Assembly: GCA_028066245.1 (NCBI GenBank)
Contig: JALCBR010000044.1
Location: 1-37,702 of the forward strand
Direction: 5' to 3'
Length of the DNA stretch: 37,702 nucleotides
Origin: Pirellulales bacterium
GTDB taxonomy: Bacteria; Planctomycetota; Planctomycetia; Pirellulales; S012-138
Shown piece by piece: positions 9,590 to 36,829 of the stretch (its first letter is position 1; every line of letters begins with the position of its first letter). Both the position numbers and the translations under genes were made by a program. The notes under the pieces were generated by a model. The model worked only from the letters and a program-made list of their open reading frames with translations. It was not told the origin of the DNA and made no database searches.

Positions 9590-9687
9590 GCTGCGCGCGC
9601 CGTCAGGGATCCGCAGTGTTCAAGAAATTGAATACCGCGGGCGCCCAACTATGTACGGACACGTCGTTCTCGCAGACGGCGTGCATC

Positions 9688-9693
9688 AGGAGG
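9688..9693 (+). promoter_or_regulatory. Ribosome binding site that fixes the rpoD start
   Basis: AGGAGG, a perfect Shine-Dalgarno core, lies 6 bases before GTG at 9700. This argues for that start over the in-frame GTG at 9616, which would prepend 28 residues with no resemblance to sigma region 1.1. Confidence 0.8.
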
Positions 9694-9699
9694 ATTTCC

Positions 9700-20999: not shown

Positions 21000-21410
21000 C
21001 TATTGCTGCGACTTGTCGAAGAACACGTCCATGCCAAGCCAAAAAGCCCTGGCGTGCCGAAAGAAGAGTAGTGGAAAGGCTACGCAAAACGTGGCCAATG
21101 GCCAAAGCTGCGCATCCGGAGTAATTCCGTATCCAAGGTAGAGCGTGAAAAACACGGCCAGCGCGATGATGGTTGTTAGGCCGTAGTTGAAGTAGATCGA
21201 ACCGAGGTAAAACCCGGATTCGCGGACCAGGTCCAAGCCGCAGTGATCGCAACTCGCGTTCATGCTTAGGAAACCTCTAAAGAGCTTCCCTTGTCCACAA
21301 CGTGGGCATCGTAGACGACAGCAACGCCAGAAGACTGTCCAAAACCGCAGCGGCGTTTGGCCGGAAGGCGGAGGATTGGAGGGGACGTCGGTCGGTGGGG
21401 ACTGGTTCAT
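21000..21410 (-). CDS. DUF983-like small membrane protein with zinc-ribbon Cys pairs
   Basis: A 136-residue product. The N-terminal half has R-L-R-C-P-R-C-G-Q-G-K-L-F-R-G-F-L and then C-D-H-C-G-L-D-L, two C-x2-C pairs as in DUF983 proteins. Two membrane helices follow: Y-F-N-Y-G-L-T-T-I-I-A-L-A-V-F-F and L-A-T-F-C-V-A-F-P-L-L-F-F. The function of the family is not established. ATG at 21410 is used; an in-frame TTG at 21458 would overlap the upstream gene by 14 bases and has no ribosome binding site. It is the last gene of the minus-strand glycan locus and may be co-transcribed with the GT-C gene just upstream. Confidence 0.8.
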   Translation of the reverse strand: MNQSPPTDVPSNPPPSGQTPLRFWTVFWRCCRLRCPRCGQGKLFRGFLSMNASCDHCGLDLVRESGFYLGSIYFNYGLTTIIALAVFFTLYLGYGITPDAQLWPLATFCVAFPLLFFRHARAFWLGMDVFFDKSQQ

Positions 21411-21444
21411 AGCGCAAATCAGCGGAGTCACGCATTTTTCAGAC

Positions 21445-23352
21445 TCAATGGAGTTCAATCAAGCGGTAGCGGCGCCGATGGCCACCGATTGCCGCGCTTT
21501 CGTATTCGAGCACGGGAGTCACTGTTTCGGGAGCATCTTTTTCAGCTTGAGCGATCAGCTTGCTCAGCGTGGCGTTGAAATGCGTTTCTCCATCGAGCGA
21601 TTCCGCCAACAATACGTGCGAAAACCCGGCGGTACGGAGTTTTGCGGAAGCCTCCATGCCGTCCAACCCCTGCTGGTAGCCTGTTTCTCTCCGCCAGATG
21701 TTTTCCCGCGTGACCGGACAAGGAAAGTAATACATCCGATAATCCTGAGACAGGATGCACGCAGCTCTTGGCAGTTGTTGCAACGCAAACTGCGCGGCGA
21801 GATATGTCGGCTCCTCTCGCTGCAAAAATGTCGCACGTGATTCCACACCCAAAGCAACTGCAACATGCTTCCTTGCCCGATACAACGGCAACAAGGCCAT
21901 CAGCGCTAGCGCTCCCGCAATCATGCCGCGCGTTATCAATGCAGGCAGGGCGGCAAACCGGCAAGTTTCTACCAGCAGCCATGTGGCGGCTAGAATCAAC
22001 ACGGGAACAGCTGGCAACAGGAAGCGGAGATTTTGCCGCAGTGCAAACCAGATCATGAAATAGCAAGCCGCGAAGATCAGCAGAAAACCCAAGCCTCGTA
22101 GCCTGCGGGCAAACAGCACGCCCGGCAGAGTCGCCAGAAACAGACAACCGAGTTGATGTCCCCGACCGCCAAACGCATCCGGCTTCATGGTCAAATGCCA
22201 TGGCGCACCGGCGAGATCGGCAGCATTCCAGCCCAATGGCCGCTTGCTTTCCCGAATCGTGTCGGGACCGTTTGCGTTTCCTGCCAAAGAGGCAAAGAAC
22301 GGGTACACGGGATTCCCGCGATGCCATGCCGCACGAATGTACCATGCGGATGCGATCAAGAACGCGATGGCAAACACCACGACAGCGCCGCGCGCTACAG
22401 TTGACCATTCCACTTGACGACGAAGCACTCGCCACGCGGTTGCTAGAGCCAATGCCACCACAAAGATCAACGCAACGTATTTGATCGCCAGTGCAGCGCC
22501 GGCGGCCAATCCGGCCCGCAGAATCCAGGTGCGTCTCGCTGTCCGCTTGTCAGGTTCTCCCTCCAAGAGATATCTTCGCCAGGCGATCAAGCCCAACGTT
22601 GTAAACGCCGCCAATGCAATATCGTTAAGCGGCGATGTCATCTGATTAGACACCGCTGGTATCAGCAAGGCGATTGCCCCTGCGGTCACAGCCCAGTCCC
22701 GTCCGAGTAGGTCCCGCGCCAGACTCATCACCGCCATGGCGAACAGCACGCCCAATCCCCAGTGAATCAATTGTGCGGTGACTGCCCCTTCCAAAGCCAT
22801 TCCCCAGGCAAACCAGATCTCAGTCAACAAGGGAAACGTCGCATTATCGTGCCAAGGCACAAACAAGATCGCTTCCGCTTGCAGAAACTGCTTCGGCAGT
22901 TCCAAGTGATAACACAAGGCATCCCCGGCCGTGGCCGGAGAAAGTGCAGACACCATGGAGCCCGCCAACGCAAAGAGGCAAGCGAGAAAGAGTCCTTGCT
23001 GCCACCAGTTGGGCGGACCGGCGACATTGTGACTGACAGGTACTATCTCGCTTCCCAGTGAAATTGTACCCGTGCCAATCCTTCTGCATCTCTGTCGCCA
23101 GATCTGCCCCAGAGCCCAACCACATCCGGCAACGGTGAGTACGCGAATCAACACGAGATCGAGACATCCGATGAGTCCTAACCCGGTTAGTAGAGTGCCG
23201 GCGGTGATCAATCCGATCGCGAAACTCCAAGCCTGCCGGCTGAGCGCGTCTTCACCGGAAATTGCCCAGCGACGCACGAGTGGATACCCCAGTCCCCACG
23301 CCGTGAGAGCGATCGCCATGAAGGAAATCAACGAATGAAGTGTGTTAACCAT
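21445..23352 (-). CDS. Membrane glycosyltransferase of the GT-C type (ArnT/PMT-like)
   Basis: A 635-residue polytopic membrane protein with roughly 11-13 hydrophobic helices. GT-C enzymes use polyprenyl-phosphate sugars to glycosylate lipids or proteins on the outer face of the inner membrane. The first outer loop has P-A-T-A-G-D-A-L-C-Y-H-L-E-L-P, with an acidic residue soon after the first helices as in the ArnT/PMT family. S-P-L-N-D-I-A-L-A-A-F follows in a later loop. The last ~130 residues are a soluble domain. ATG at 23352 is chosen because the first helix begins there (M-V-N-T-L-H-S-L-I-S-F); a TTG at 23409 would add 19 basic residues. It lies inside the glycan locus, 19 bases after a small membrane protein gene. 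The acceptor is unknown. Confidence 0.8.
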   Translation of the reverse strand: MVNTLHSLISFMAIALTAWGLGYPLVRRWAISGEDALSRQAWSFAIGLITAGTLLTGLGLIGCLDLVLIRVLTVAGCGWALGQIWRQRCRRIGTGTISLGSEIVPVSHNVAGPPNWWQQGLFLACLFALAGSMVSALSPATAGDALCYHLELPKQFLQAEAILFVPWHDNATFPLLTEIWFAWGMALEGAVTAQLIHWGLGVLFAMAVMSLARDLLGRDWAVTAGAIALLIPAVSNQMTSPLNDIALAAFTTLGLIAWRRYLLEGEPDKRTARRTWILRAGLAAGAALAIKYVALIFVVALALATAWRVLRRQVEWSTVARGAVVVFAIAFLIASAWYIRAAWHRGNPVYPFFASLAGNANGPDTIRESKRPLGWNAADLAGAPWHLTMKPDAFGGRGHQLGCLFLATLPGVLFARRLRGLGFLLIFAACYFMIWFALRQNLRFLLPAVPVLILAATWLLVETCRFAALPALITRGMIAGALALMALLPLYRARKHVAVALGVESRATFLQREEPTYLAAQFALQQLPRAACILSQDYRMYYFPCPVTRENIWRRETGYQQGLDGMEASAKLRTAGFSHVLLAESLDGETHFNATLSKLIAQAEKDAPETVTPVLEYESAAIGGHRRRYRLIELH

Positions 23353-23371
23353 GCGTGAAGAACAAGTTGCT

Positions 23372-23575
23372 CTACAACGAACTGACCATCGCCGCGACCC
23401 ATGTGACAACGACCAGTATCACCCATAAGGTGATTGTCCAAGCCTTCCAAGCTGGCATGTGCGGTGGAGCACTCTCGCGACCTGCCCAGGCAAAGCGACG
23501 GATGACGCGCTTGGCGGTACTCAATGACTGCCCGGGCGGCGAGGTCTCCGTCAATCGAGTCTTTTGCGTTGCCAT
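23372..23575 (-). CDS. Small C-terminally anchored membrane protein
   Basis: A 67-residue product with a polar, basic N-terminal part (about residues 1-40; T-A-K-R-V-I-R-R-F-A-W-A-G-R-E) and a single strong C-terminal membrane helix (A-W-T-I-T-L-W-V-I-L-V-V-V-T-W-V-A-A-M-V). This arrangement, the tight fit between the GT9 gene (51 bases) and the GT-C gene (19 bases), and the same strand support a real gene. No family is recognised and there is no clear ribosome binding site before ATG 23575. It may help assemble or recruit the neighbouring transferases, which is inference only. Confidence 0.55.
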   Translation of the reverse strand: MATQKTRLTETSPPGQSLSTAKRVIRRFAWAGRESAPPHMPAWKAWTITLWVILVVVTWVAAMVSSL

Positions 23576-23626
23576 GTTTGATATTGTTGACGTAAGTGTT
23601 GCGCGCAAAGTGATCGCAAATTGATG

Positions 23627-25066
23627 CTAAACACGTCGAGCGATTGGACGATTCACGACGTGCCCTGTGATCTCTACTGATTGCCGGACATCACGCTTAC
23701 GTTCCGCTTCCAAAACGCCATCAATGACACCGGCGACTTGCCGTGGCTTGATGCCTTGCATGCAGGGATGATCTGGCAGCGGACAGGTTTCCAAATGACA
23801 GGGCGCACAAGCAACGGGGTGCTTCACAACGGAAACTTGGTCACCCCATGGTCGCCACTGTTCGGGATGATTGGTGCCGCTGTAGAGTACCACCACCGGC
23901 GTTCCACAAGCAGACGCAAGGTGGGCCGGCCCCGAATCCGCTCCTACGAGCACACTGCACTGCTGTAGCACGTGCGTCAGCTCCATGAGGGACATTTGCC
24001 CGGCAAGGTTCATTAATCGGTGAGCGCCACTTATGTGGACATCCGAGTTGGCAGCGACATGGCACTGTAGGAGGACAGCCTCCGCGAGATCTCGTTCGCT
24101 TGGTCCGCCTAACAGCACAACTTGCCGCGTCGTTTCACGAGCGATCAATTCCAAGGCAAGGCTTGCCCAAGACTCTGCCGGCCATATCTTGGCCGCTGTC
24201 CCAGCACCAATATGTAGCGCGATTGCGCCGCGAGAAATTGTCCTGGGAGAAACCGTGGTGGCCAACAGAGTTTGTGACTGAGAGTTCGACGATACGAATT
24301 CGCCGATTGAACTTTGCGACGGAGCCGTCACTTGTGGAGCAACATCCTCCGGAGGAATGGGCTTTGCGGAAATAAGCGAGGCAATCTCCGCCCGAGATGC
24401 CACTTCGTGTCGCTGCGGGACAAATGGAGTGCTATGTGTTAGCAGGAACCCGCCTCCTCCAGCTGACCATCCCACACGATTCACAGCTCCGGCTAACCAC
24501 ATCGCTACCGCATGCGGAAATTCGCCACGGACATCCACTGCTAAGTCAAATTGTCTGCGTCGCAACTGCCAAGAGTGAACAATCAGCGCGCGGACCCAGC
24601 GCCAATTTCCTGCGCGCGCGAACCGTGTTTCTGCCAGTACGTGCACCTGATCCACGAGCGTCAACTGTTGGAAGAATTCTTGATTCCACTTTGAGGTCAA
24701 GACTTCCAGGCTGGCGGTCGGGAATCGTTGTTTGATCCACTGCAGCAAGCCGGTTGAGAGGATTGCATCGCCAAAATGATCCAATTGAATCACAAGAATT
24801 GTGCGGATGCGCCGAGGGGAGATCGAGCCATGACGCACAAGTTTTCGCCAGAGATAGGCTGGCCAAAACAACAACCAACCTAACGCGTCAATCACCGCGA
24901 ACAGCACTCGCCAGCGAAGCCGAACGTATCTGTAGCGTCCCCGCTTGTCGCGCACGCGCAAGCTGTTAGGGTCGAGGTTTGTTCCAGGCTGTTTTGTTGT
25001 GTCTTTCACTTCACAATCCGGCATCCGTTCATCGACATCCGCGGAGCTTTTGCAACGGTGTGGCAA
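23627..25066 (-). CDS. Glycosyltransferase family 9 (heptosyltransferase-like)
   Basis: A 479-residue GT-B enzyme of the type that adds heptose to the lipopolysaccharide core. The N-terminal Rossmann domain starts at I-R-T-I-L-V-I-Q-L-D-H-F-G-D-A-I-L-S-T (family R-x-D-x-x-G-D-x-x-x-x-P). The C-terminal domain has H-I-G-A-G-T-A-A-K-I-W-P-A-E-S-W and V-G-A-D-S-G-P-A-H-L-A-S-A-C-G-T-P, the nucleotide-sugar site, and T-N-H-P-E-Q-W-R-P-W-G. An unusual ~80-residue N-terminal extension includes a hydrophobic stretch (V-L-F-A-V-I-D-A-L-G-W-L-L-F-W-P-A-Y) that could attach it to the membrane. TTG at 25066 has GGTGGAG 7 bases upstream; ATG at 25024 is an alternative giving 465 residues. Sugar donor and acceptor are unknown. 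Confidence 0.88.
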   Translation of the reverse strand: MPHRCKSSADVDERMPDCEVKDTTKQPGTNLDPNSLRVRDKRGRYRYVRLRWRVLFAVIDALGWLLFWPAYLWRKLVRHGSISPRRIRTILVIQLDHFGDAILSTGLLQWIKQRFPTASLEVLTSKWNQEFFQQLTLVDQVHVLAETRFARAGNWRWVRALIVHSWQLRRRQFDLAVDVRGEFPHAVAMWLAGAVNRVGWSAGGGGFLLTHSTPFVPQRHEVASRAEIASLISAKPIPPEDVAPQVTAPSQSSIGEFVSSNSQSQTLLATTVSPRTISRGAIALHIGAGTAAKIWPAESWASLALELIARETTRQVVLLGGPSERDLAEAVLLQCHVAANSDVHISGAHRLMNLAGQMSLMELTHVLQQCSVLVGADSGPAHLASACGTPVVVLYSGTNHPEQWRPWGDQVSVVKHPVACAPCHLETCPLPDHPCMQGIKPRQVAGVIDGVLEAERKRDVRQSVEITGHVVNRPIARRV

Positions 25067-25127
25067 ACTAGAACTCCACCCTAGCGAAGTTCTCAGGCAG
25101 CACTTCCCCTTGGTTTATAGCTGGTGA

Positions 25128-26297
25128 CTAGGCACGCGCGGCGGCGGACCACAACGCCTGTTCGTAGCCGGCTAATGTTGCTTCCGCGACATTCGCCCAT
25201 GTGAATTTGCTCGATACGTGTGCCGCGAGCTCTGCTGTACGGCCTTGCGCCAATGTGGTGTTGACCGCCATGCGAATGCTCGCTGCATCAGCCGGGTTTG
25301 CATAGGTGGCATGTTTGCCGAAATACTCCCGAGTACATCCCCGGTCTGTCAGCGCCAAGGGAGTCCCCATCATCCCCGCTTCGAGCGCAACCAGCCCGGG
25401 CGTCTCAAACCAGCTCATCAGGGCAACGCAGCCACAGCTTGCATAGGCGCTGGCAAGCAGAGGATCATCGTGCGCGATTCTTGGATGAAAGGTGACGTTT
25501 GTGTCTGCAGCAGCCCGGCATCTTGCTTCGTAGTCTTCGTGTCCACGAACGGCGTCACCCAAGATCACTAAACGTGCTCCCTGGCCGCGCATCGCATTGA
25601 TCAATCCAAGTTGGTTTTTCCGCGGTTCGATCCTGCCGGGAGCTAGGACATACCCTGCCCCTCCAACACGTTCTGCAAATGCGTGCGGATCACCATTTCT
25701 AAAGCGAGTGCTTGCACCGTTGGGCACGACGCGAATGGTCGCTTCCGGCAATCGAAAGCGGTCCATCAGTTGACGCCGCTCAGCGTCGGAGTTTGGCAAG
25801 AGTACATGCGCGGTCTCGTAAAGGCGTTTCCTCCATGTTGGCGTCCACGTCACCGCACCAGCAAGAGCAAACTTTCCTCGCCGCAGCAGTCGTTTCGCCA
25901 ACGAGCCTGATTCTTGCATGCGGCTTTCCACGTCAAACCAGGCGATCGGCGAAACCGCAACCGCCACGCCCCGCCGACGTGCCATTAACGCTAACGAGAG
26001 GTGCTCGCGCAGGCTGCCAAAGATATGCAGGACATCGGTTTCGCGACAACGGTCGAAGTCCTCGCGCCAAGGTCGTGCATCCAAACCAATTTCGCGAAGT
26101 ACATTGACCGTTTCGATAAGCTGGATCTCACCTCCGCCAGGCGAAAGCCGGCCTTGAGCGCTTCCCACCGCGCGCACACGCAGTGTCCGAGACTTCCTCG
26201 GCCGGTGAAGTAACAAGCTCGACGAAAGCCAAGTCATAGGTACGCCATGGGGATCGATCACGCCTGGAGGTTGAATCAATGTGGACACCTGGTCCAT
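25128..26297 (-). CDS. Glycosyltransferase family 4 (GT-B)
   Basis: A 389-residue retaining-type transferase. The N-terminal half has G-G-G-E-I-Q-L-I-E-T-V-N-V-L as the acceptor-side glycine loop. The C-terminal half has A-P-G-R-I-E-P-R-K-N-Q-L-G-L-I (the R-x4-K donor site), L-V-I-L-G-D-A, and S-W-F-E-T-P-G-L-V-A-L-E-A-G-M, the E-x7-E catalytic motif. It is cytosolic or membrane-associated and would add a sugar from a nucleotide donor to the growing glycan. ATG at 26297 has GAAGGT about 8 bases upstream; a second ATG lies at 26237. It sits 69 bases after the deacetylase gene and 61 bases before the GT9 gene, all on the same strand. Confidence 0.9.
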   Translation of the reverse strand: MDQVSTLIQPPGVIDPHGVPMTWLSSSLLLHRPRKSRTLRVRAVGSAQGRLSPGGGEIQLIETVNVLREIGLDARPWREDFDRCRETDVLHIFGSLREHLSLALMARRRGVAVAVSPIAWFDVESRMQESGSLAKRLLRRGKFALAGAVTWTPTWRKRLYETAHVLLPNSDAERRQLMDRFRLPEATIRVVPNGASTRFRNGDPHAFAERVGGAGYVLAPGRIEPRKNQLGLINAMRGQGARLVILGDAVRGHEDYEARCRAAADTNVTFHPRIAHDDPLLASAYASCGCVALMSWFETPGLVALEAGMMGTPLALTDRGCTREYFGKHATYANPADAASIRMAVNTTLAQGRTAELAAHVSSKFTWANVAEATLAGYEQALWSAAARA

Positions 26298-26366
26298 TCG
26301 GATACCTTCGTTGATCTCTGATTGAACTTGAACGTCGCGCTCACGTCTACTAAGTGTTGGGAGGGT

Positions 26367-27959
26367 TCACGGATCGGGGAATGCGTAGCGAAGCGATTTC
26401 TTCAAGAGCTGCCGCACGTTGCGCACCTGCAACTCGGTAACTGGCGTGTCTCGCTCCCAATCGATGAACTGCTTGACGGCTTGGCGTAGTGAAAACGCTT
26501 GAGGCAACGTTGTTCCGGCAAGGCACGGCGGTTGCGGGCGAGTTTGAAATGTGGGCCGCACGATTTTGCGACCACTTAGTGAGTTATCGAGAAACGGGTT
26601 GTTTGGCGACGCAAACTCGCGTGGAACCACCTCTTGTTGACGATTGTTTCTTGTCTTGGGAAAGCTGCGATGGTCAATGACGATATCGGGAGCATCAATC
26701 GCCACTGGGGCAACGTGATCTCCCAGCCAAAGATCGACCGCCGGAACCCACGGTCCGCTGGGCGAGAGCCGCCGAACGCGAATTCCCGCGGCGCAGGGAT
26801 CGACCTGGAGGCTAACTGCGGCTCGGGTACGCCACCACGCGCAAAAGTCGCGCATGTTCATTCGCCACAGCCCGGGGATAGCGTCAGCTGCCCGCAGAAT
26901 CTCACGTACCAATTCGGGATAGCGTCCCAATCTTCGTTCCGGATGACCGTAAAGCAGGACGGGTTCGCCAGCCTGAAAATTGGCTTCAAGCCAGGTCGTG
27001 AAATGACGTGTTGCGATCTCAACCGCGTGCTCCGCAGACTGCCCGCATCCTGTGGCGGCTTCTAGCAGCACGCCCAAAGAAATGGGGTGCACGGGGATCT
27101 GCAGCACGCTTGATGCTTCACCAGATTGAGTCGTGGGCAGGAACGGTCGATCGTCAAAGGCCAACGAGAATTCTGAGCTATGCGAAATGCCTAATTGCTC
27201 CAGGCTGTGGAGCAAACCTTCATTGAAACGCCCGTGAGGAGCGACAAATCCGTCCGGATCCAGTCCAGCTCGCTGCAAAGCGTCCATTCCTCGCGCAACG
27301 TTGTGCAGATTCTCGGCGGCATTTGCGTAGGTGTGATGCCAGTAGCCATGTCCTCCAACGTGCAAACCTTGTAAACGTGCATGAACGTCCGTTTGGTCTT
27401 CGTATGCTCTGCCGCACAGGTAATGACTCGTTGCGTTCTGACATCCATCAATGACGTCCAGAAACCGAGCGACGTCGCCAGAAGCAACTTCGTCATAGTC
27501 AATCCGCAGGCAGAACGCACCGCGAAATCCCGCAGGCACGGGCGAGATCGTTAGCCAGACGCCCCCCAAGGACTCGATCTTTTCTCGCAGTCTTGTCAGC
27601 AGGCGTCGACGTTCTGCACGTTTGTCAAACCGAGCGACGCACTCTTCCGGACTTAACTCCTTCAAATCCCAGCTGCGGCGAACGCTTGTTGTGTTGAGCA
27701 GCCGGTCGCAAAGACTTGTCGGAGGGCAACCATCATCAGACGCGTCACAGGCGGCGATATCGATTGCCTGTTGGCCGGGCAACAAACTAGGCGTTGATTC
27801 TCTTCGACTGTCAAACAGTACAAACCGTCCGTTGGGATGACCTGCGATCTCGCCTGCACACTGATCCACACGCCGGAACGGTACACCTTCCTGCTCCAAA
27901 GCCTGGGCCAGGCCTGGTGAAACATCGCTCAGGATCAGCGGCAACAAAGGCAAGCTCAT
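26367..27959 (-). CDS. Polysaccharide deacetylase-like (NodB fold) protein
   Basis: A 530-residue protein whose middle (about residues 145-390) matches the NodB/CE4 barrel. The metal-site motif reads R-I-D-Y-D-E (residues 152-157) where CE4 enzymes have T-F-D-D-G. The H-x3-H motif is present as G-G-H-G-Y-W-H-H-T (202-210). F-V-A-P-H-G-R-F (228-235) stands where R-x-P-Y/W is expected. The first motif keeps an Asp pair but with a Tyr between, so activity is likely but altered. The N-terminal 140 residues and C-terminal 130 residues are unassigned. No signal peptide is seen, so it may act in the cytosol on lipid-linked sugar. Its ATG (27957-27959) overlaps the upstream GT2 stop by 4 bases, giving translational coupling. 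Confidence 0.8.
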   Translation of the reverse strand: MSLPLLPLILSDVSPGLAQALEQEGVPFRRVDQCAGEIAGHPNGRFVLFDSRRESTPSLLPGQQAIDIAACDASDDGCPPTSLCDRLLNTTSVRRSWDLKELSPEECVARFDKRAERRRLLTRLREKIESLGGVWLTISPVPAGFRGAFCLRIDYDEVASGDVARFLDVIDGCQNATSHYLCGRAYEDQTDVHARLQGLHVGGHGYWHHTYANAAENLHNVARGMDALQRAGLDPDGFVAPHGRFNEGLLHSLEQLGISHSSEFSLAFDDRPFLPTTQSGEASSVLQIPVHPISLGVLLEAATGCGQSAEHAVEIATRHFTTWLEANFQAGEPVLLYGHPERRLGRYPELVREILRAADAIPGLWRMNMRDFCAWWRTRAAVSLQVDPCAAGIRVRRLSPSGPWVPAVDLWLGDHVAPVAIDAPDIVIDHRSFPKTRNNRQQEVVPREFASPNNPFLDNSLSGRKIVRPTFQTRPQPPCLAGTTLPQAFSLRQAVKQFIDWERDTPVTELQVRNVRQLLKKSLRYAFPDP

Positions 27960-28915
27960 TCGTGCGCGTCAGACTCCATCAACAGGGGAAGAAGTGTTTG
28001 TGGAAGCCACGGCCGGTTGTCAGCTTGGAACTGAGGGATTGGCTCTTTGGTTTGGTTTTGCGAACGTGAAAGGCGTTGGTTCTCCTTTCGAGCCTGCCAC
28101 AACCGACGATGCTTGTCCGCTTCAACCCATTTCGAAAAGCCTGACAACGCACAAAAGGCCCAACCTTCCGGTCCATCCAGCAAGCCACCTTTCCAGAGCA
28201 GTCGCCGTCCAAACTCGACAACAGGAGCGAGCCAGCGCTCTCGCCAACGTGGGATGAATCCTCGTTCATCTCGGAATTGCGCCTCCAAAGTGGTATAGCG
28301 ATCCATCTTTCGCAGGAAAGCATGCAGATCAGGAAGCGTAATATGTTCCAAGTGACTGCGCAGCCGCCCAACTTTTCCGACAACGTGAAGTCGCTCATGG
28401 ACATCGCCTGCCCACCGAGCTGCCTCGCGTTGAAAGAGTCGAACAGGTTGGTCATCCTGCGTCCCGGAGAACCGCATCCGCCGGCCAAAGATTCGACTAC
28501 GAATCGGCACGGCGAACGCACTTCGCCCCTCGCCGCGCGTGGCAATTGTCTCTTGAATCTCCGTTCTCAACGCCAACGTTGGCCGCTCATCCGCGTCGAT
28601 GGATAAGATCCAATCTCCGCGGCACTGTTCGATCGCATGATTCCGTTGCGCCGCGAAGTTGTCGAAGCTTCGCTCGAACACTCGGCAGCCAAGCTGCCCG
28701 GCCAGTTCCGATGTGCCGTCAGTTGAACCTCCGTCGATGAGTACGATCTCGTCGGCAAACTGCAACGAGGAAACTAGCGATAGCAACTGCCGGGCTTCAT
28801 TGAGTGCAATGATCGCCGCGGAGAGCTGGGCCCCTCTGGCTCGGCGTTTTGCTACGCGGGTTAATTTGCCGTGACCGCTCCGTGTACGGCTCCTCGCAAC
28901 TGCAGAGTGAGACAT
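27956..28915 (-). CDS. Glycosyltransferase family 2 (WaaE/KdtX-like)
   Basis: A 319-residue GT-A enzyme. The N-terminal domain has L-S-A-A-I-I-A-L-N-E-A-R-Q-L (about residue 31), L-I-D-G-G-S-T-D-G-T and the metal-binding I-D-A-D-E-R (106-111), with A-A-Q-R-N-H-A-I before it. This N-E/D-G-G-S-x-D/A-D-E pattern is that of the WaaE/KdtX group, which adds glucose to lipopolysaccharide core. W-A-G-D-V-H-E-R-L (family G-x-V-H-E) is the following conserved segment. The N-terminal 30 residues are very basic. Its start lies 2 bases past the stop of the upstream phosphotransferase gene, so the two are translated together. Acceptor unknown. Confidence 0.9.
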   Translation of the reverse strand: MSHSAVARSRTRSGHGKLTRVAKRRARGAQLSAAIIALNEARQLLSLVSSLQFADEIVLIDGGSTDGTSELAGQLGCRVFERSFDNFAAQRNHAIEQCRGDWILSIDADERPTLALRTEIQETIATRGEGRSAFAVPIRSRIFGRRMRFSGTQDDQPVRLFQREAARWAGDVHERLHVVGKVGRLRSHLEHITLPDLHAFLRKMDRYTTLEAQFRDERGFIPRWRERWLAPVVEFGRRLLWKGGLLDGPEGWAFCALSGFSKWVEADKHRRLWQARKENQRLSRSQNQTKEPIPQFQADNRPWLPQTLLPLLMESDAHE

Positions 28916-28917
28916 CG

Positions 28918-29760
28918 TTACGCAGCCTCCCGTGCCGAAGAACTCCCATGTTCATCAGCGAGCAAGGAGGAGGCATCTGCTGGCTGCGACTCATCCTGAT
29001 TCAAACGCCGCCATACCAAGAAAGAACGAACGGTGGTTCGTAGCCCAAAGTACGCTGCGGCAAACGCCAGCGCGATCTCAGGTCGCGCGAGTGCGAGCGC
29101 ACCAATCAGTAGGTGGACGCGGAGATCCGCGTTGCCGGGCAAGTTGTAAAGGCGACGGACCCGGTCGAACCGGACCGGCTGGCGAGGAACGTCATCGGCG
29201 GCGCGAACTGTATCGCTTGAGAATTGGCCATTTGCGTTGTCGGGCTGAGATTGACAGCTGACTGTGAGTTGTTCCTCCAGTCGAATTCCGTACTGCCACA
29301 AGTATTTCCCGCCGAGGAAAACAGCGAACAGTATCCAGGGCCACATCGCAGAGTAAGCAGTCGCCACACAAGCAGCACACGCTGCATGTAGAACGATGTC
29401 GCCAGCTTCGTCCACGTTGGCGTCAAGCCAGGCTCCCCAGCGAGAACTGCTCTCTTGCGTGCGGGCAAGTCGCCCATCAAGGCGGTCACAAATCCAAGCA
29501 AGCCATACCAGTAATGCTCCCCACTGCGGAAATCCACTGGCAGTTGTGAATGTTGCCAGCGCTATCATCGCCACGCCCAACAGCGTCACGTGCGCGGGTC
29601 GCCAACGAGTTTCCGCCATTCTGTCCGCAAGGACACCCACTAAAGGAACGATGTACCATCGTGAGATCGGATGCCTGGCGGCATGCTGCCAATCTGTGCA
29701 GGACGATCCATCGCATGTTGAGTTGTCATGGTGCGGGAAAGGCAAGATGTCGCTCATCAT
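28918..29760 (-). CDS. CDP-alcohol phosphotransferase, complete active-site motif
   Basis: A 280-residue membrane enzyme that transfers a phospho-alcohol or phosphatidyl group from a CDP-linked donor to an alcohol. The family motif D-x2-D-G-x2-A-R-x8-G-x3-D-x3-D is complete: D92-R-L-D95-G-R-L-A-R, G109, D113 and D117. About six membrane helices are visible around it. The N-terminal ~35 residues are soluble and polar. The first ATG (29760) overlaps the stop of the upstream GT2 by 4 bases, and AGGGAGG lies just upstream; a second ATG one codon later is equally likely. Substrate is unknown. A transferase making an inositol- or glycerol-phosphate lipid or decorating the glycan would fit the location. 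Confidence 0.88.
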   Translation of the reverse strand: MMSDILPFPHHDNSTCDGSSCTDWQHAARHPISRWYIVPLVGVLADRMAETRWRPAHVTLLGVAMIALATFTTASGFPQWGALLVWLAWICDRLDGRLARTQESSSRWGAWLDANVDEAGDIVLHAACAACVATAYSAMWPWILFAVFLGGKYLWQYGIRLEEQLTVSCQSQPDNANGQFSSDTVRAADDVPRQPVRFDRVRRLYNLPGNADLRVHLLIGALALARPEIALAFAAAYFGLRTTVRSFLVWRRLNQDESQPADASSLLADEHGSSSAREAA

Positions 29761-30926
29761 CGGCCTCCCTGCACGCCGGAGAGGAATGCCGGCCTGTTCT
29801 CTGGGGACGTTCCGGGCATGTTCCCGCTGATGATTTGTTCCGCGTTCAAAGTTGGATCAGACGTCGCCGGATATTCAATCGCTTGTCCCCGAGATTCGGA
29901 AAGTAAGGTCTGCTGACTGAATCTCTGAAAAAACTCCAACTCGCGTTCGATCTCCACACGACGACGGTTTCTAGGCGTGGATGAATTTCGAGTCCGCTGC
30001 TCAACACCTCTAGTTTTCCAGAGACGGCGCGCCTCCAACCATGCCCTCAGGAATTCCCATCGCTGCTTGTTTGATCGCAACGGCGCCGTCACGAGATCCC
30101 GAGCGATCCGCAGTCCACAGCCAAAAAGCTGTCGAACCTGGGAACGACGGCTGCGCAGGTTTTTCCATTGAAAAAGGAGGGTATTCCGCCATGCCAAGTG
30201 ATCGCATCCCTGCTTGCCATGCTCACGACCAAAGCTGACTTGCCCCTTGTGGAACGCAATCGCGTCAGGAACATATCGCAAACTCCAGCCACGCTGCCAA
30301 GCGCGGTAGGCGAGGTCGAGATCCTCGATTCGTCCTGGCAAATAGAGAGGATCAAACCCGCCTAGCTCACGGAACAACTGGCAGTTGACTGCCAAAGCCG
30401 CCCCCGCACAAGCTGTTTCCCCCGGAACGCGGATCGCACGCTGGTGCCCTGGGAACCGACCGGTCGCCTGCACCAAGCCATACCGCCAGCGGACAGCCGT
30501 TTTGAATCCCTCACACGTCACGCCGTCAAACTGCCAACACAGAGGAGCCGAGAGAAAGACCGCAGGCGCGTTTTGATCATCGTTGTGCCCAGCGCGGACA
30601 TGGAAGGGCTCGACAAGAGGATCAATGGCTCCTGACGCCAACTTGAGATCGTTGTTGAGCAGCAGTGCAACGGGGTAATCAAAGTCACCAGAAGCTCCTT
30701 CGATCACGTCATTGAATGAGCAGAGCCCGCGGTTGGGGCGTGGCAACACTTCGACTTCCGGGAACGTTGCTGCCAAGAATTCAAGCGATTCATCGCTCGA
30801 ATCATTATCGATAAGTATGACGTGGCATTCGTAGCGGCTTTGCTGAGCGGCGTGAAGCACCGACGGCAGACACTCCTCCAAGAGGTCCCGCCCGTTGTAA
30901 TTCAAGATTAGAATCGCCACTCGCAT
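29757..30926 (-). CDS. Glycosyltransferase family 2 (rhamnosyltransferase-like)
   Basis: A 389-residue GT-A enzyme. It begins M-R-V-A-I-L-I-L-N-Y-N-G-R-D-L-L-E-E-C-L, followed by L-I-D-N-D-S-S-D-E-S (donor loop), L-L-L-N-N-D-L (metal site, in place of D-x-D) and later F-x-Y-L-P-G-R-I-E-D-L-D-L-A-Y-R-A-W, the E-D-x-D-L-x-x-R catalytic/acceptor region. This resembles rhamnosyl- and dTDP-sugar transferases of O-antigen loci. The C-terminal 100 residues are basic and probably disordered. It lies downstream of a 162-base gap in the locus and its stop overlaps the next gene by 4 bases. A promoter could sit in that gap, but none is convincing. Confidence 0.9.
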   Translation of the reverse strand: MRVAILILNYNGRDLLEECLPSVLHAAQQSRYECHVILIDNDSSDESLEFLAATFPEVEVLPRPNRGLCSFNDVIEGASGDFDYPVALLLNNDLKLASGAIDPLVEPFHVRAGHNDDQNAPAVFLSAPLCWQFDGVTCEGFKTAVRWRYGLVQATGRFPGHQRAIRVPGETACAGAALAVNCQLFRELGGFDPLYLPGRIEDLDLAYRAWQRGWSLRYVPDAIAFHKGQVSFGREHGKQGCDHLAWRNTLLFQWKNLRSRRSQVRQLFGCGLRIARDLVTAPLRSNKQRWEFLRAWLEARRLWKTRGVEQRTRNSSTPRNRRRVEIERELEFFQRFSQQTLLSESRGQAIEYPATSDPTLNAEQIISGNMPGTSPENRPAFLSGVQGGR

Positions 30927-31088
30927 GCGGCTGGCATCCTTGCCTGCGAGATATCGTTTAACGGAGGGAGGTAAACCGCTGTCGTTGGCGTTCGTAGACA
31001 GAACGGAGCCCTGGCTTCCCCCCGAGGCACACCACTGGTTCTGCTCCTATCTCCTGCCCGACACGATAGTTCGGGACGTGACAGCAGG

Positions 31089-32051
31089 TCAAGACGAGGT
31101 CACAGCCGAGTGCGAGTTGGGATTGTCATCGTAGCGAACGACCCGCCACCAGCCGTTTTCGAACGCCAACGTCGTTCCTTCTTGAGGGCCATACCATTGA
31201 GCGAATTCTCGTTCCGCGGCTTCGTTCCGCAGCCCCCGTAGTACATCGAACGCCGCCAACGCAAGCGATAGCACCGCTATGGTCGCTAGCATAGCTTTGC
31301 CCCCCATGAACTTGACGTCAGCAAGAGTCATCGCGGCGAGGGCAATCACCGTGAGTACGTTCATCACGACATGGATTTCACACATCTTGCGGGCATATCG
31401 AAGAATCATCCGATTCCACTGGCGCGGCATAGCTGGTTGTGGGGTAGGTCGCGCTGCTCCGCCGCCGCGGACAACAAGCTCTCCGCGCACACGCTTGAGC
31501 CGTTTGATGAACGCTTTGTAGCGGACATCGTGTATGAGTCCAATCGACAGCAGTCCCACACTGGCTGCCACGCCGACGAGCATCCACCAACTCACGCCGG
31601 ACTGGCGAAACAGCCCCCACCCCATCCCCAAGGGGAGCAGTAAGTTCACCAGATGGTGCATCAGATAATCCAAGCCAGCACCATCAAGCGATTCCTTGTT
31701 CGCATAGCGAGCGAGTTGGCCGTCAACGTGGTCCAAGAGATACCAAAGCTGCAATAGCGCCGCACCCACTAACCAAGACACCATCGTCCCGCAGGTGAAA
31801 CAGGCCACAGCAGCGGTTGCAACGCCCAACGCGATAAAGGTCATCGCATGTGCGGAAACCCCATACGGAACCAGCACTCGTGTGACACGCAGGGCCAGCG
31901 GACGAGAAATGCGACGTGCCATCCAATTGCCAATCCGTCGATGGTCCGGCTTCTGGCACCGGTGTTCAAATTCAGTCCAAGAGAATGCATCTCGGCTGGT
32001 GATCGCGTCTTGGACGATGGGATCTTCTTGGACGGCGCTATCTTTCGGCAT
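31089..32051 (-). CDS. CDP-alcohol phosphotransferase with altered last catalytic residue
   Basis: A 320-residue polytopic membrane protein of the same family as the gene at 28918. The motif reads D107-H-V-D110-G-Q-L-A-R115, eight residues, G124, D128, then Y-L-M-H132. The fourth acidic position, usually the general base, is therefore His. The remaining metal-binding Asp residues are kept, so it may be active with His as base or have a different substrate. The N-terminal 60 residues are soluble; about six to seven helices follow. The two phosphotransferases differ clearly in sequence, so they are not a recent duplication. The gene stands 90 bases after the flippase gene. Start ATG 32051 is not backed by a good ribosome binding site. 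Confidence 0.85.
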   Translation of the reverse strand: MPKDSAVQEDPIVQDAITSRDAFSWTEFEHRCQKPDHRRIGNWMARRISRPLALRVTRVLVPYGVSAHAMTFIALGVATAAVACFTCGTMVSWLVGAALLQLWYLLDHVDGQLARYANKESLDGAGLDYLMHHLVNLLLPLGMGWGLFRQSGVSWWMLVGVAASVGLLSIGLIHDVRYKAFIKRLKRVRGELVVRGGGAARPTPQPAMPRQWNRMILRYARKMCEIHVVMNVLTVIALAAMTLADVKFMGGKAMLATIAVLSLALAAFDVLRGLRNEAAEREFAQWYGPQEGTTLAFENGWWRVVRYDDNPNSHSAVTSS

Positions 32052-32141
32052 CTGTTGGTTGGGCGGAAACGCCCCACAAGGAGGATGAACGAAAACCCAA
32101 TGACATCGCCAGTAGAGTGGATTTCCGAATTTGTCCCAAGC

Positions 32142-33731
32142 TCAGTTTGACGCTCCCCTGGTGAGAAACTCGCTCCAGCGGAAGCGGTTCCATCCACAAA
32201 CGATGATGAGTAACCACACCAGCAGACAAATCCCACTGGCAAGAGTTGCCTGCCCCCACGACATGCCGGGTGTGTTCATCGAAAGCAACATCGCAAGCCC
32301 ACACGGAATCAGCGCGACTCCGGTCGCGATCAATTGCTTGACCAGTTCCGCCCTGGGAACCGCGCGCATCGTCATGCTAAGAACCAAACTCAGATAGGCC
32401 AGGTTGGCCAACGCGGTGGCAATGGCAATCCGGAGCACGCCGCCCCCCGTGGCAACAGCGATTCCATTGAGGAAAAACGCGAGTACCGTCCCTGCCACCA
32501 TCGCCCCTAAGACGCCACGCCCTCGATTCCAAGCAACGAGACAGTGTTGTGCCGGCAGAGAGAGGCCCAGTGCCAAAGCCCCGCAAACAGTCGGAATCAG
32601 AGCCGGAAGTCCAGCTTGATATTCTGGCAGAAAACTCATCAACAGTGGCGGAGCAAAACACACCGCTATAGCCGCTGGTAACGATAGGACAACGGATATC
32701 ATTTCCATGAACCGAGCCGCCAATGCCGCCACGGACGTAGAGTTCCTGTTGACGCCCACGGCTTGGGTTAACCGCGGGCCGCAAACTCCGCTGAACACAT
32801 TTGCCAGGCCGTAGATCTGTATGGAGACGAGCAATGCGGTCGAATAGCAACCTAACTGGAATTCGCCATCGGCGATCGTTGCTAGCACGAAGAGCTTGTC
32901 CATCGATCGAAACAGCGACGAGACGATGCCCGCAGCCAAAAGCGGCGCGCCAATCTTCATTAAGCGACGAACCTCAGCCCCGTCCCAGGCAAACTGAAAT
33001 TGGTGTTCACGACGACGCTGCAAGAACCAGAGCGATGAGATCATCACCAAGGCAGTCGCCGTATACAGTCCCACCAGTCCCCATAGCCAGACGCAGATGC
33101 CGGTCGTCAAAACCGTGAGCACGGATTCCTGGAGAGCCAACAAAGATGTGGCCCGAACGCGGTGGTTGGCGCGCAGTAGCGTGACGCGGAATGTTGTGTA
33201 GCGCTGCAACATCGCCAAAGCGGCGATGGCGATGAATCCCACGGACCACTCGGTCGCCAGTTCGCTCTGTCCCCAAGTAACAACCGTCGCGACAGCGACT
33301 AGGATCAGCGCATAGCCCAAGCTCGTGAGCGTGTTGACGGTGAACGCCAGATTAATGGAGCGGGAAAGTTGAGGCGCCGCTTGCTGCCCTGATGCCAAGC
33401 TGACCTCGCGTGCGGCGGCTTTACTGACGCCAAGTCCTGCGTAATTTCCGTAGCTGAGTGCCAGTTTGAGACCTTGCCAAATACCAATTTGAATGGGCGA
33501 GAGAAGCATCCGGAGCAAGATGGCCGTCCCCGCGCCCAAGACCTGTCCAAATATTGTCGCCCCGCCAGCGGTGGCGGAGTCAGCCAAAAACCTTCGCCAT
33601 CCGCCAACGGGCATGGACGGAGTCAAAAGAGTTTTGGCTTGCAAAACAGCATCAACACGGCTGGCGACTTTCCTCGCGCCAGAAGGACGAGGAGTACTAG
33701 ACTCGATCTGTTTGACCGGAGGCTGCGTCAT
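32142..33731 (-). CDS. Polysaccharide/lipid-linked oligosaccharide flippase (Wzx/MOP superfamily)
   Basis: A 529-residue membrane protein with about 13-14 hydrophobic helices after a 60-residue polar N-terminus. The first helices read G-G-A-T-I-F-G-Q-V-L-G-A-G-T-A-I-L-L, followed by A-L-S-Y-G-N-Y-A-G-L-G-V, a pattern seen in Wzx and related exporters (G-x-F-x-P-x-x-Y-x-G-L/G-L-x-x-A in relatives). Its task would be to move the lipid-linked glycan from the inner to the outer face of the cytoplasmic membrane. ATG at 33731 is chosen over a longer frame (33785) because AGGAGG (33736-33741, minus strand) lies 4 bases upstream. The ATG overlaps the upstream stop by 2 bases (ATGA), so translation is coupled. 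Confidence 0.88.
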   Translation of the reverse strand: MTQPPVKQIESSTPRPSGARKVASRVDAVLQAKTLLTPSMPVGGWRRFLADSATAGGATIFGQVLGAGTAILLRMLLSPIQIGIWQGLKLALSYGNYAGLGVSKAAAREVSLASGQQAAPQLSRSINLAFTVNTLTSLGYALILVAVATVVTWGQSELATEWSVGFIAIAALAMLQRYTTFRVTLLRANHRVRATSLLALQESVLTVLTTGICVWLWGLVGLYTATALVMISSLWFLQRRREHQFQFAWDGAEVRRLMKIGAPLLAAGIVSSLFRSMDKLFVLATIADGEFQLGCYSTALLVSIQIYGLANVFSGVCGPRLTQAVGVNRNSTSVAALAARFMEMISVVLSLPAAIAVCFAPPLLMSFLPEYQAGLPALIPTVCGALALGLSLPAQHCLVAWNRGRGVLGAMVAGTVLAFFLNGIAVATGGGVLRIAIATALANLAYLSLVLSMTMRAVPRAELVKQLIATGVALIPCGLAMLLSMNTPGMSWGQATLASGICLLVWLLIIVCGWNRFRWSEFLTRGASN

Positions 33732-35626
33732 GCAACCTCCTGGCCGAGATTGGACTTCGTGGCGTTCTGAATTGGCGACGAACAATCTGCGCCGAGAATC
33801 TCAACCCTTGCGGAGCCAAACTCGTGCTGTTGTCGGGCGAGAATCTCGTTGACCGCTTTTCGAGCTGCATCGTTCCCCGTGGCGGCAAAGATGCTCTCGA
33901 AAGCGCGAACGGACACTCCCTTCCAGTCCCTCTGGTCAAGGATTTGAGCCAAGAGCTGGCTTAGCTGATCAACCGTGGTCGCCGATCCAATCCCACCCCA
34001 AGCTTCCGCAGGCAGCAGTTCTTGTCCGCCAGCGGGAACAAGTTCGATCACTTTCGCTCCATCCGCGGCTGCTTCGATCCCGGAACCCGAGGCAAGGTTT
34101 AATGTCACATCAGCCTGCCGAGCCAAATCAACAGCCGTTCCACGCTTTATCACCCTCGTTCGCACGCGCGGAAAATGCTCCACAATCCGCTGGAAACAGT
34201 CTCCATGCTCACAACGAGGGTGCCGTTTGATCGTCAGTCTGGCTCCCGGAAACCGTGACAATGCAGCGAAGACGTTGTTCACCAACTCAGCGTGAGCGCG
34301 CGAAGTGAGGTGAAACGCAACCGGTTCTGGACGATCATCACGCGGCCAAGTTGTCGCCAGTAACAGCACGTGAATGTTGCGGCGCGCTCTCTTTTTCACA
34401 TTGGCTTGTGCTTTTTTCTTTGAAGCGTTCTGTGAAGATCGGCGCGTGCGAGACCAATCCGCTCGTCCTGTGATGGCAATTCGTTCTGGAGAAATACCGA
34501 AGCGAACCAGTTGCGCCCGCGACGAATCACCCCAGGCCAAAATCGCATCAGCCATCAACGGTGCAAAGCCAAATTGCAATCGTGGTGCCCCGTGTTGAAT
34601 GACGAAGCTGGGGATGCCTTGCTTTTGCGCGGCGTTGACAGTCAGACGTTTTCCCGACGTTGCGTCTTCATCCAAGATCAAACACGTTGGGCGGTGTTCG
34701 TGCAGAGTTTCTTGCAGTTGTTCGTGCTCTTGCCAAAGCGAGTCGCCGTGGCTTTGAACCAACCGGAACAAAAACGACGAAATGCACCCAGCCAGGTCAA
34801 TGCCATCGATCAGGTATGGGGAGGGCGCGCCAGCGGAATCCCCAACGGATGAAAAGAACTTTTGCGTTTTCCCTTGTATCGGACGTGGCATCACAAGTTG
34901 ATGACCGCCCCGGAAGCGCCATTTGAGCCATGAGCGAGGTGCAAATTGCTTCCGCAACCAAATCGTGCTATGTCCGCGACAGCTAAACTCCGAACAGATC
35001 GGATCCAGGATACGCGGATTGCCGGAGAACATGACTCGTGCTCGTCGAGAACCAGATCTCGGCGTCACTAGCCGACACAGGCGTTCTACGTACGATCTCC
35101 TATCTCGCCGCGCCACCGACTCGTGAGTCTGACTGCCTGTCTCGGGTTGGAGAGGTGTGGCTTCTTGCTGGTCGGGCAGAATGCGTAGTGGGAATGCGTC
35201 TCGTTGAGCAATCGCATGTAGCAAAAGCCCGTATTCCTTGGTGGAAGTGGTGTTGTAGTCTGATACAGGTTCATACAACCGGCATTCCCCAGAGGGACGA
35301 TGGTTGCCAAAGAAGGCAATCAAGCGCAACCATTTCACGAACTCGTAGCGCAGCTTCAGTGCAAACAGGTCGGCCGCGTTCAGCGCAGGCGATTCTCCGC
35401 CATCGACAGAAGCGAAAAGAAACCTCGTATCACGTGCCGCCAATGCGGCCAGCTTGTGCGCCGTCTCATCAATCCATTTTTGACGAACGTCGCATTCCGC
35501 GTCCAGCGCCCAACGGCCAGCGTGTTGTTGCTCGTCAACCGCCAGCCAGTCTCCTTCCAGCAAGAGCGCATCGGCAGACTCTGGAAGTCTTCCGCATGCG
35601 AACTCCTTGCAGGTAAAAACGTACAC
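33728..35626 (-). CDS. GT-B-like capsule/teichoic-type transferase of unknown specificity
   Basis: A 632-residue soluble protein. The C-terminal half (about residues 330-610) looks like the GT-B fold of the CDP-glycerol glycerophosphotransferase and UDP-GlcNAc 2-epimerase group: P-S-F-V-I-Q-H-G-A-P-R-L-Q-F-G-F, D-A-I-L-A-W-G-D-S-S-R-A-Q-L, I-T-G-R-A-D-W, I-K-R-H-P-R-C-E-H, and N-L-A-S-G-S-G-I-E-A-A-A-D-G-A-K as the donor-binding loop. The N-terminal half (1-320) has no recognised domain; residues 160-200 are polar and probably a linker. It starts with GTG at 35626, 27 bases after the HAD-like gene. In this locus it may transfer a glycerol- or sugar-phosphate unit. Family assignment is moderate and the exact substrate is unknown. 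Confidence 0.7.
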   Translation of the reverse strand: MYVFTCKEFACGRLPESADALLLEGDWLAVDEQQHAGRWALDAECDVRQKWIDETAHKLAALAARDTRFLFASVDGGESPALNAADLFALKLRYEFVKWLRLIAFFGNHRPSGECRLYEPVSDYNTTSTKEYGLLLHAIAQRDAFPLRILPDQQEATPLQPETGSQTHESVARRDRRSYVERLCRLVTPRSGSRRARVMFSGNPRILDPICSEFSCRGHSTIWLRKQFAPRSWLKWRFRGGHQLVMPRPIQGKTQKFFSSVGDSAGAPSPYLIDGIDLAGCISSFLFRLVQSHGDSLWQEHEQLQETLHEHRPTCLILDEDATSGKRLTVNAAQKQGIPSFVIQHGAPRLQFGFAPLMADAILAWGDSSRAQLVRFGISPERIAITGRADWSRTRRSSQNASKKKAQANVKKRARRNIHVLLLATTWPRDDRPEPVAFHLTSRAHAELVNNVFAALSRFPGARLTIKRHPRCEHGDCFQRIVEHFPRVRTRVIKRGTAVDLARQADVTLNLASGSGIEAAADGAKVIELVPAGGQELLPAEAWGGIGSATTVDQLSQLLAQILDQRDWKGVSVRAFESIFAATGNDAARKAVNEILARQQHEFGSARVEILGADCSSPIQNATKSNLGQEVA

Positions 35627-35653
35627 AGGCTTCCTAAGCTCCCAGCGAGTTGG

Positions 35654-36421
35654 CTATCCGGCCTGCGTCCACAAACGGCGTAACGTGACATGGCTCGTCA
35701 GTTCGATGAGCGAGTTGACCCAAAGCCGACCGCTCCGAGCTCTCGCAGGACAGGCGATAGCTCGCAGCCCAACCGATTCTGCGCCAGCCAGTTCTCGCTC
35801 GCGAGACCCAACGTAGATGACGTCGTCTATCTTAAGGCGCAACCGCAAAACCGCTTGCAGGTATGCGGCCGCGTGCGGCTTGGCCGTGCCGAGGTCTTGC
35901 GATGTGACAACTGATTGAAACTGCGAAAGGCCATGCGAGTGCAACCAGCCTTTTAACTGTTCGCCTGAAACTTCGCTGTTCGCCAGCACGCCAAGAGCCA
36001 AGCCTTGCCGTGCGAACTGCGCAATCGCTTGCCTGACTCCCGCGAGCGGGCGCGATTCCTGAAACAGCCGGCCACGGCGAGTTTGTGCTGCGGCGCCAAG
36101 CTCGGAGCAGAGCATTCGGGGCACGCCGAGGCTCTGTAGCATTGCCAGGAGTGCTTCTCCAGACGTCGCACGGCCTGTCCACAAATCGTCGCTGACTTCA
36201 TCCCAAGCGTATCGCACCTCTTCAAAGGTGTTGATGGCAATTTTTCTTCGAAGTTGCACATGCAGCCAGCGCAGCCACAGTGAATCATCGTACAGCGTGT
36301 CCGCACCGGCAAAGATGATGCCGCGCGCCGCGAAGACCATGGGCGTGCGAGGCCAGACCGCTAAACTTTCACGCAAGATCTCCTTGCGAAAGGGCTCGCC
36401 ACGGCCAAGAATCCGCTTCAT
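35654..36421 (-). CDS. HAD-superfamily-like protein lacking the catalytic Asp residues
   Basis: A 255-residue soluble protein with the HAD layout but a broken motif I. The expected F-D-x-D-G-T-L reads F37-A38-G-A40-D-T-L, so the nucleophile and the general acid/base Asp are both Ala. Motif II is present as L-G-V-L-A-N-S-E, motif III as L-G-T-A-K-P-H-A-A-A-Y. Motif IV reads V-I-Y-V-G-S-R-E-R-E-L-A-G instead of the usual G-D/S-x3-D. Phosphatase activity is therefore unlikely. ATG at 36421 is preferred: AAGGA lies about 10 bases upstream, whereas the GTG at 36430 would be only 1 base from it. It is the first gene of the minus-strand locus, so it may be a regulator or binding subunit of the pathway. 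Confidence 0.8.
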   Translation of the reverse strand: MKRILGRGEPFRKEILRESLAVWPRTPMVFAARGIIFAGADTLYDDSLWLRWLHVQLRRKIAINTFEEVRYAWDEVSDDLWTGRATSGEALLAMLQSLGVPRMLCSELGAAAQTRRGRLFQESRPLAGVRQAIAQFARQGLALGVLANSEVSGEQLKGWLHSHGLSQFQSVVTSQDLGTAKPHAAAYLQAVLRLRLKIDDVIYVGSRERELAGAESVGLRAIACPARARSGRLWVNSLIELTSHVTLRRLWTQAG

Positions 36422-36829
36422 GCGTTCCACGTCCTTTGAGGCCGCGTTGGGCCTGGGGGTGATCCCTCACCACGGGTTGTTCGCGGAGCGAAAGTCTAGC
36501 AACGCCTGCAAATGCGGGTCAAGACAACGTCTCGCCATGCGGTATGCGGCACCCTTGACAGCAACGCCAGCATTGCCGAATTGATCCGCCGAACCACTTG
36601 ATGTGACGGGCCTTTGCAGCCCTCACCTCCGAGCGAGTCAACAATACAACATCTCGTTGTTGCCCGACTGGGCGAGACTTAGCTCGAGCGGACGCGGGCC
36701 AGCGGTCCGCGATCACCAGGGCATGGACAGAACTTGGGCTGGAATGGTAGCCTCAGATGTTTCTGTAGTTGGGTAGTCGAACGCCTTATGTCGAGGGCGT
36801 CCAAGCTGGCCACCAGCATGTTTTCTCTC
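36422..36829. other. Divergent intergenic region upstream of the glycan locus
   Basis: These 408 bases separate the HAD-like gene (-) from a plus-strand gene and should hold the promoter of the whole locus. I see no gene. A short hairpin, GCGGAC (36690-36695) with GTCCGC (36706-36711), is present. No reliable -35/-10 pair can be placed. Confidence 0.4.

Follow-up and report, generated by a model that had tools for sequence, protein, structure and literature searches.

Little is known about the surface-glycan chemistry and genetics of planctomycetes. In mycobacteria, glycans are anchored by the product of phosphatidylinositol-phosphate (PIP) synthase, a member of the CDP-alcohol phosphotransferase family, whose enzymes mostly make phospholipids. 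The signature of this family contains four aspartates (here D1 to D4), of which the fourth is the presumed catalytic base (PMC6506517). A precedent for building on a phospholipid is found in group 2 capsules, where KpsS and KpsC start from phosphatidylglycerol (PMC12220298). In Prevotella and Bacteroides, an alternative inositol-lipid cluster encodes an NTP transferase and a HAD protein along with a CDP-alcohol phosphotransferase (PMC9246714). Our literature search found no work joining 'CDP-alcohol phosphotransferase' with glycosyltransferase, polysaccharide and cluster, and its flippase matches were not relevant; a paper on phosphonate glycans names LicD-like phosphotransferases, not the CDP-alcohol phosphotransferase family (PMC6697681). 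Here we describe a locus of a Pirellulales bacterium (GCA_028066245.1) in which two unlike CDP-alcohol phosphotransferases, CAPT1 and CAPT2, stand among genes for a Wzx-type flippase and several glycosyltransferases, and in which CAPT1 carries a histidine in place of D4. The locus lies on contig JALCBR010000044.1 (C69 in our set), all 37,702 bases of which were analysed (the window); the assembly comprises 4.94 Mb in 186 contigs.

We compared the locus across 197 genomes of the order, drawn evenly; many of these are fragmented assemblies, so absences among them are soft. CAPT1 was found in 22 genomes, about one in nine, and in all 22 it stands beside the same glycan genes. The initial annotation would have been refuted by phosphotransferases standing away from glycan genes in most relatives, and this was not observed. 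CAPT2 is present in 19 genomes, 17 of which also have CAPT1 (Fisher p = 3e-18, a value that ignores shared ancestry). The order HAD - GT-B - Wzx - CAPT1 - GT2a - CAPT2 - GT2b - deacetylase - GT4 - GT9 - GT-C is repeated across genera and families at protein identities of mostly 27-57%, and the arrangement is thus not due to chance; that the order is kept over several families argues that the locus makes something selected for. Its two blocks, HAD to CAPT1 and GT2 to GT-C, are usually contiguous and sometimes apart; in four genomes (G004, G010, G014, G023) the halves lie on separate contigs, with both retained. In G126 and G189 no CAPT2 was found mid-locus while the rest is similar, G126 also being without the deacetylase, and Wzx is present in 17 of the 21 loci that could be resolved. 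CAPT1 is therefore the constant element, whereas CAPT2 and Wzx, though common, can be dispensed with. We consider it probable that the eleven genes form one conserved surface-glycan pathway. One His-type CAPT1 belongs to another order of the class, where it stands directly behind a GT-C gene and a methyltransferase gene (L112:6632-10270, G563:C156); GT-C and CAPT1 show 35% identity each, the remaining locus genes are absent there, and the pair may represent a minimal version of the locus.

The signature of CAPT1 in the window reads DHVDGQLAR-x8-G-x3-DYLMH (across the CAPT1 copies, DHVDGQ[LV]AR-x8-G-x3-DY[LW]MH). It retains D1-D3, the glycine and the AR pair, but the fourth aspartate is replaced by His132, and because of this we file CAPT1 as a CDP-alcohol phosphotransferase-like variant rather than a canonical member. 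The histidine is present in 24 of 24 CAPT1 copies found (23 genomes, one of them fetched twice and one from another order of the class), and D1, D2, D3, G, A, R and His are invariant among 16 aligned sequences. The predicted model (pLDDT 88) has the six-helix fold of class I enzymes and superimposes on AF2299 of Archaeoglobus fulgidus with Z 18.6 and a root-mean-square deviation of 3.8 over 216 residues; the CAPT1 profile likewise matches AF2299 at E 6e-16. CAPT2, on the other hand, is canonical (DxxDGxxAR-x8-GxxxDxxxD), with Asp at D4 in every copy read, in the window and in relatives, and its profile matches A. fulgidus class I enzymes at E 5e-15. Since CAPT1 is better conserved than CAPT2 (mean column identity 45% versus 38%) and the remainder of its site is intact, it appears to be an active variant. 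Loss of D4 also extends beyond the locus, as distant CAPT1-like genes at L113:72-1624 and L114:3033-4627 have His or Asn at the fourth position. Weaker CAPT1-like matches in other classes (37/392) are mostly other CDP-alcohol phosphotransferases, so this tally does not describe the distribution of the locus; those with readable signatures all keep Asp at D4 except L075, L076 and L086.

A second feature of the locus concerns the sugars. Clustering of flanking genes in the relatives placed a CMP-sugar cytidylyltransferase at eight loci and NeuB at seven, upstream of HAD, and where HAD is missing they stand directly upstream of the GT-B gene. Pfam confirms one linked cytidylyltransferase and one linked NeuB, and further cytidylyltransferases lie beside the loci of G009, G027, G061 and G066. 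A close NeuB occurs in 15 of the 22 CAPT1 genomes versus 4 of the 175 others (p = 5e-14, with 'close' meaning E up to 5e-79, a threshold chosen after the list had been seen); none of the latter four has the deacetylase. In the genome studied here, a NeuB of the same type is unlinked, on contig C156, with 48% identity to the linked NeuB. It belongs to a same-strand row (L111:8656-11668, G000:C156) with an SpsF-like cytidylyltransferase and, judged by eye, a Gfo/Idh-like oxidoreductase. The linkage in relatives and the co-occurrence of NeuB with CAPT1 make a nonulosonic acid, a sugar of the sialic-acid-like kind, a likely constituent of the glycan. Both this module and the Asp-to-His change in CAPT1 are new relative to the initial annotation.

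A candidate enzyme for transferring such a sugar is the GT-B gene. Pfam does not recognise the window sequence by itself; Capsule_synth is found in 8 of 11 homologues, and KpsC is a weak hit of the family profile (E 0.002). EDAT and HPR motifs are invariant in the family, and an HP motif occurs both in enzymes of the KpsC type and in some CMP-sialic-acid transferases (PMC10148158). A fold search with the predicted model returned GT-B and was otherwise unspecific, the best matches being UDP-GlcNAc 2-epimerases, with KpsC not among the matches listed. We take the gene to be a putative CMP-nonulosonate or Kdo transferase.

From gene content, synteny, co-occurrence, fold and conserved residues we infer the following substrates and order of steps. 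NeuB and the CMP-transferase, linked in relatives and on another contig here, would supply CMP-nonulosonate. On a membrane lipid, an oligosaccharide would be assembled by the KpsC-like GT-B together with the GT2, GT4 and GT9 enzymes; Wzx would flip the lipid-linked oligosaccharide, GT-C would add a sugar outside, and the deacetylase would trim N-acetyl groups. CAPT1 and CAPT2 would form phosphodiester bonds in the glycan product: CAPT1 would use a common donor, for example CDP-diacylglycerol, to make a lipid-phosphate anchor or linker, His132 acting for the Asp base, and CAPT2 would make a second, dispensable phospho-alcohol linkage. As a whole, this picture of a flippase-exported, lipid-linked nonulosonate surface glycan, with phosphodiesters made by both phosphotransferases and the anchor or linker by CAPT1, is the reading that we favour, though tentatively, and the same caution attaches to the single proposal that CAPT1 makes the anchor.

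The choice of CDP-diacylglycerol as the simplest common donor, itself unproven, follows from the lack of a common dedicated donor synthase, as all these genomes should have CDP-diacylglycerol. Inositol was rejected as a general substrate: an inositol-phosphate synthase is present in the genome studied here, but genomes with the locus do not have it more often (12/22 versus 121/197 overall, p = 0.49) and is absent from G005, a single-contig genome that has the locus. A CDP-glycerol (teichoic-acid-like) pathway was rejected as well, because none of the 197 genomes has a glycerol-3-phosphate cytidylyltransferase over the family cut-off; weaker hits fall mostly within long frames and are probably other nucleotidyltransferases. 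A nucleotidyltransferase of the type seen at L114 was also considered for this genome, and its sole match resembles GlmU.

Several observations weigh against the proposed pathway. CAPT2 is missing from 5 of the 22 CAPT1 genomes, Wzx is absent from four loci (G005, G043, G070, G077), and seven CAPT1 genomes lack a close NeuB. In motif I, the window HAD protein has FAGADT against FDMGDV in most relatives; the nucleophile Asp is thus replaced by Ala here (and by Glu in three relatives), so a role as the phosphatase for nonulosonate 9-phosphate is doubtful and the protein, judging from these residues, may be inactive. As the initial annotation had stated, the Pfam-scanned window genes include no recognisable Wzy, ligase or initiating enzyme, a search that did not extend to the rest of the genome. 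Lastly, AF2299, the closest relative with a solved structure, works with a soluble donor and has a donor pocket that is small and polar (PMC4634129), and the distant CAPT1-like genes of L113 and L114 adjoin NTP_transf_3 nucleotidyltransferases, which speaks for a soluble CDP-alcohol.

These last points favour an alternative in which the two enzymes would take a phospho-alcohol group (e.g. phosphoglycerol or phosphoethanolamine) from a CDP-alcohol that is soluble and place it on hydroxyls of the sugars, the glycan being built on undecaprenyl phosphate, with the initiating enzyme encoded elsewhere. The best matches, AF2299 and DIPP synthase, are both soluble-donor enzymes, and the dispensability of CAPT2 is what such a decoration would predict. 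However, a dedicated alcohol-phosphate cytidylyltransferase is neither linked nor co-occurring, and CAPT1 is retained at every locus, more like a core step. With the CDP-diacylglycerol argument on one side and the resemblance to AF2299 on the other, we weight anchor and decoration almost equally, and regard decoration, too, as possible but doubtful. The earlier suggestion that the phosphotransferases themselves produce the acceptor lipid therefore meets donor evidence that points both ways. Its companion, that the locus may make a phospho-alcohol-linked glycan or an unusual glycolipid, is partly supported: the two phosphotransferases belong to a pathway of glycosyltransferases and flippase, CAPT1 standing beside these genes in 22 of 22 genomes, but the flippase is not universal.

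We consider it improbable that CAPT1 is catalytically dead, with a structural or regulatory role. Mutation of D4 to Asn nearly abolishes the activity of mycobacterial PIP synthase while substrate binding is kept (PMC4634129), and the lost nucleophile of the window HAD protein suggests that pseudoenzymes may occur in the locus, but an inactive site should drift over time, whereas that of CAPT1 is invariant and the protein is conserved above CAPT2. A composite locus, in which the phospholipid made by the phosphotransferases would have nothing to do with the glycan and the two would merely be co-regulated, would suit a phospholipid-making family and a donor found everywhere, but it is equally improbable given the strict co-occurrence and gene order and a CAPT1 that is never away from glycan genes.

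With a histidine at the expected catalytic aspartate, CAPT1 may have a novel mode of joining sugars to lipids. A stronger version, in which CAPT1 founds a new class where His replaces the catalytic Asp and the enzyme primes a flippase-exported glycan through a phosphatidyl-sugar anchor or a phosphate acceptor on a carrier lipid, strikes us as unlikely. If true, such priming would mean that glycan synthesis starts without any phosphoglycosyltransferase. More generally, a glycan assembled on a lipid that the locus itself provides the enzymes for would depart from the usual priming on undecaprenyl phosphate. The Asp-to-His change also probes the accepted mechanism of the enzyme family, as it would imply either His as the base or a different acceptor.

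The gene layout is given in Table 1, with gene identities assigned by Pfam cut-offs unless said otherwise. The initial annotation listed thirteen genes; we count 12, all on the minus strand from 36430 to 21000. The last of these, encoding a DUF983 protein, has no counterpart in the loci of relatives and was rejected as a locus member, so that the conserved unit comprises eleven genes (21445-36430). The co-directional arrangement with ATGA overlaps was borne out, with three overlaps at 27956-27959, 29757-29760 and 33728-33731, the last with Wzx read from its first ATG (32142-33731). The flippase and the two phosphotransferases (PF01066, E 5e-6 and 3e-11) score over the Pfam cut-off, as do the transferases named earlier, namely two GT2, one GT4, one GT9 and one PMT-type GT-C; GT9 also matches the NCBIfam heptosyltransferase II model at E 2e-34, below that model's cut-off. 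For the NodB-like deacetylase, the single sequence stays below the Pfam cut-off, but D154, D156, H204 and H208 of its motif hardly vary among 14 homologues. On other contigs, the genome has three more CDP-alcohol phosphotransferase matches (strongest E 3e-36), which makes the two in the window extra copies.

Table 1. Genes of the glycan locus in the order in which they are read.
Gene and assignment	Position	Strand	Evidence
HAD-family protein, phosphatase-like	35654..36430	-	Pfam HAD_2 E 1e-11; alignment; adjoins NeuB or cytidylyltransferase in relatives
GT-B, KpsC/Capsule_synth-like, invariant HPR motif; probable CMP-sugar transferase	33728..35626	-	Family profile, motifs
Wzx-type flippase	32142..33785	-	Pfam Polysacc_synt_3 (PF13440) E 4e-9
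CAPT1, CDP-alcohol phosphotransferase fold, His132 for fourth Asp	31089..32051	-	PF01066; predicted fold
GT2a glycosyltransferase	29757..30926	-	Pfam Glycos_transf_2 E 4e-10; synteny
CAPT2, canonical CDP-alcohol phosphotransferase, four Asp; dispensable in some relatives	28918..29760	-	PF01066; signature
GT2b glycosyltransferase	27956..28915	-	Pfam Glycos_transf_2 E 6e-15; synteny
NodB-like polysaccharide deacetylase, extra C-terminal region	26367..27959	-	Pfam E 4e-4 (below cut-off); motif residues; accompanies locus
GT4 glycosyltransferase	25128..26297	-	Pfam Glycos_transf_1 E 1e-12; synteny
GT9, heptosyltransferase-like	23627..25066	-	Pfam Glyco_transf_9 E 1e-33
GT-C, PMT-type	21445..23409	-	Pfam PMT E 5e-9; synteny; first ATG ~23352
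DUF983 membrane protein, overlaps GT-C gene	21000..21458	-	Pfam E 7e-10

Two further regions of the window lie outside the locus. Downstream of it, 15861-18986 encodes a protein of 1041 aa in which Pfam finds TPR repeats together with a CHAT (caspase-like) domain. Adjacent genes at 7751-11469 resemble, by eye, DNA primase and the primary sigma factor, a pair as in the macromolecular synthesis operon, with no rpsU noticed in front.

Compared with known systems, the locus resembles Wzx-dependent O-antigen, capsule and exopolysaccharide loci in its flippase, its several glycosyltransferases and its co-directional, overlapping genes; it differs from them in the two CDP-alcohol phosphotransferases, in the lack of a recognised Wzy or initiating enzyme in the locus and in a flippase that is missing in 4 of 21 relatives. 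The likeness to group 2 capsule loci consists of the KpsC-like GT-B and a possible phospholipid anchor. Here, however, the KpsC match is weak, the Pfam scan revealed no KpsMT ABC exporter among the locus genes, which have Wzx instead, and dedicated phosphotransferases are present. The Prevotella and Bacteroides cluster shares the combination of a CDP-alcohol phosphotransferase with a HAD protein, but an inositol-phosphate synthase adjoins it, and its description mentions no flippase with a set of glycosyltransferases, whereas for the present locus HAD goes with NeuB in relatives. Mycobacterial PIP synthase (PgsA1) has the same fold and a lipid donor; CAPT1 differs in being without the fourth Asp, and inositol-phosphate synthase does not accompany the locus. 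Finally, the class I enzymes AF2299 and IPCT-DIPPS of A. fulgidus have the transmembrane fold and most of the signature in common with CAPT1 and CAPT2. A fused cytidylyltransferase domain is in neither window protein, CAPT1 has His at D4, and both window proteins sit in a glycan locus.

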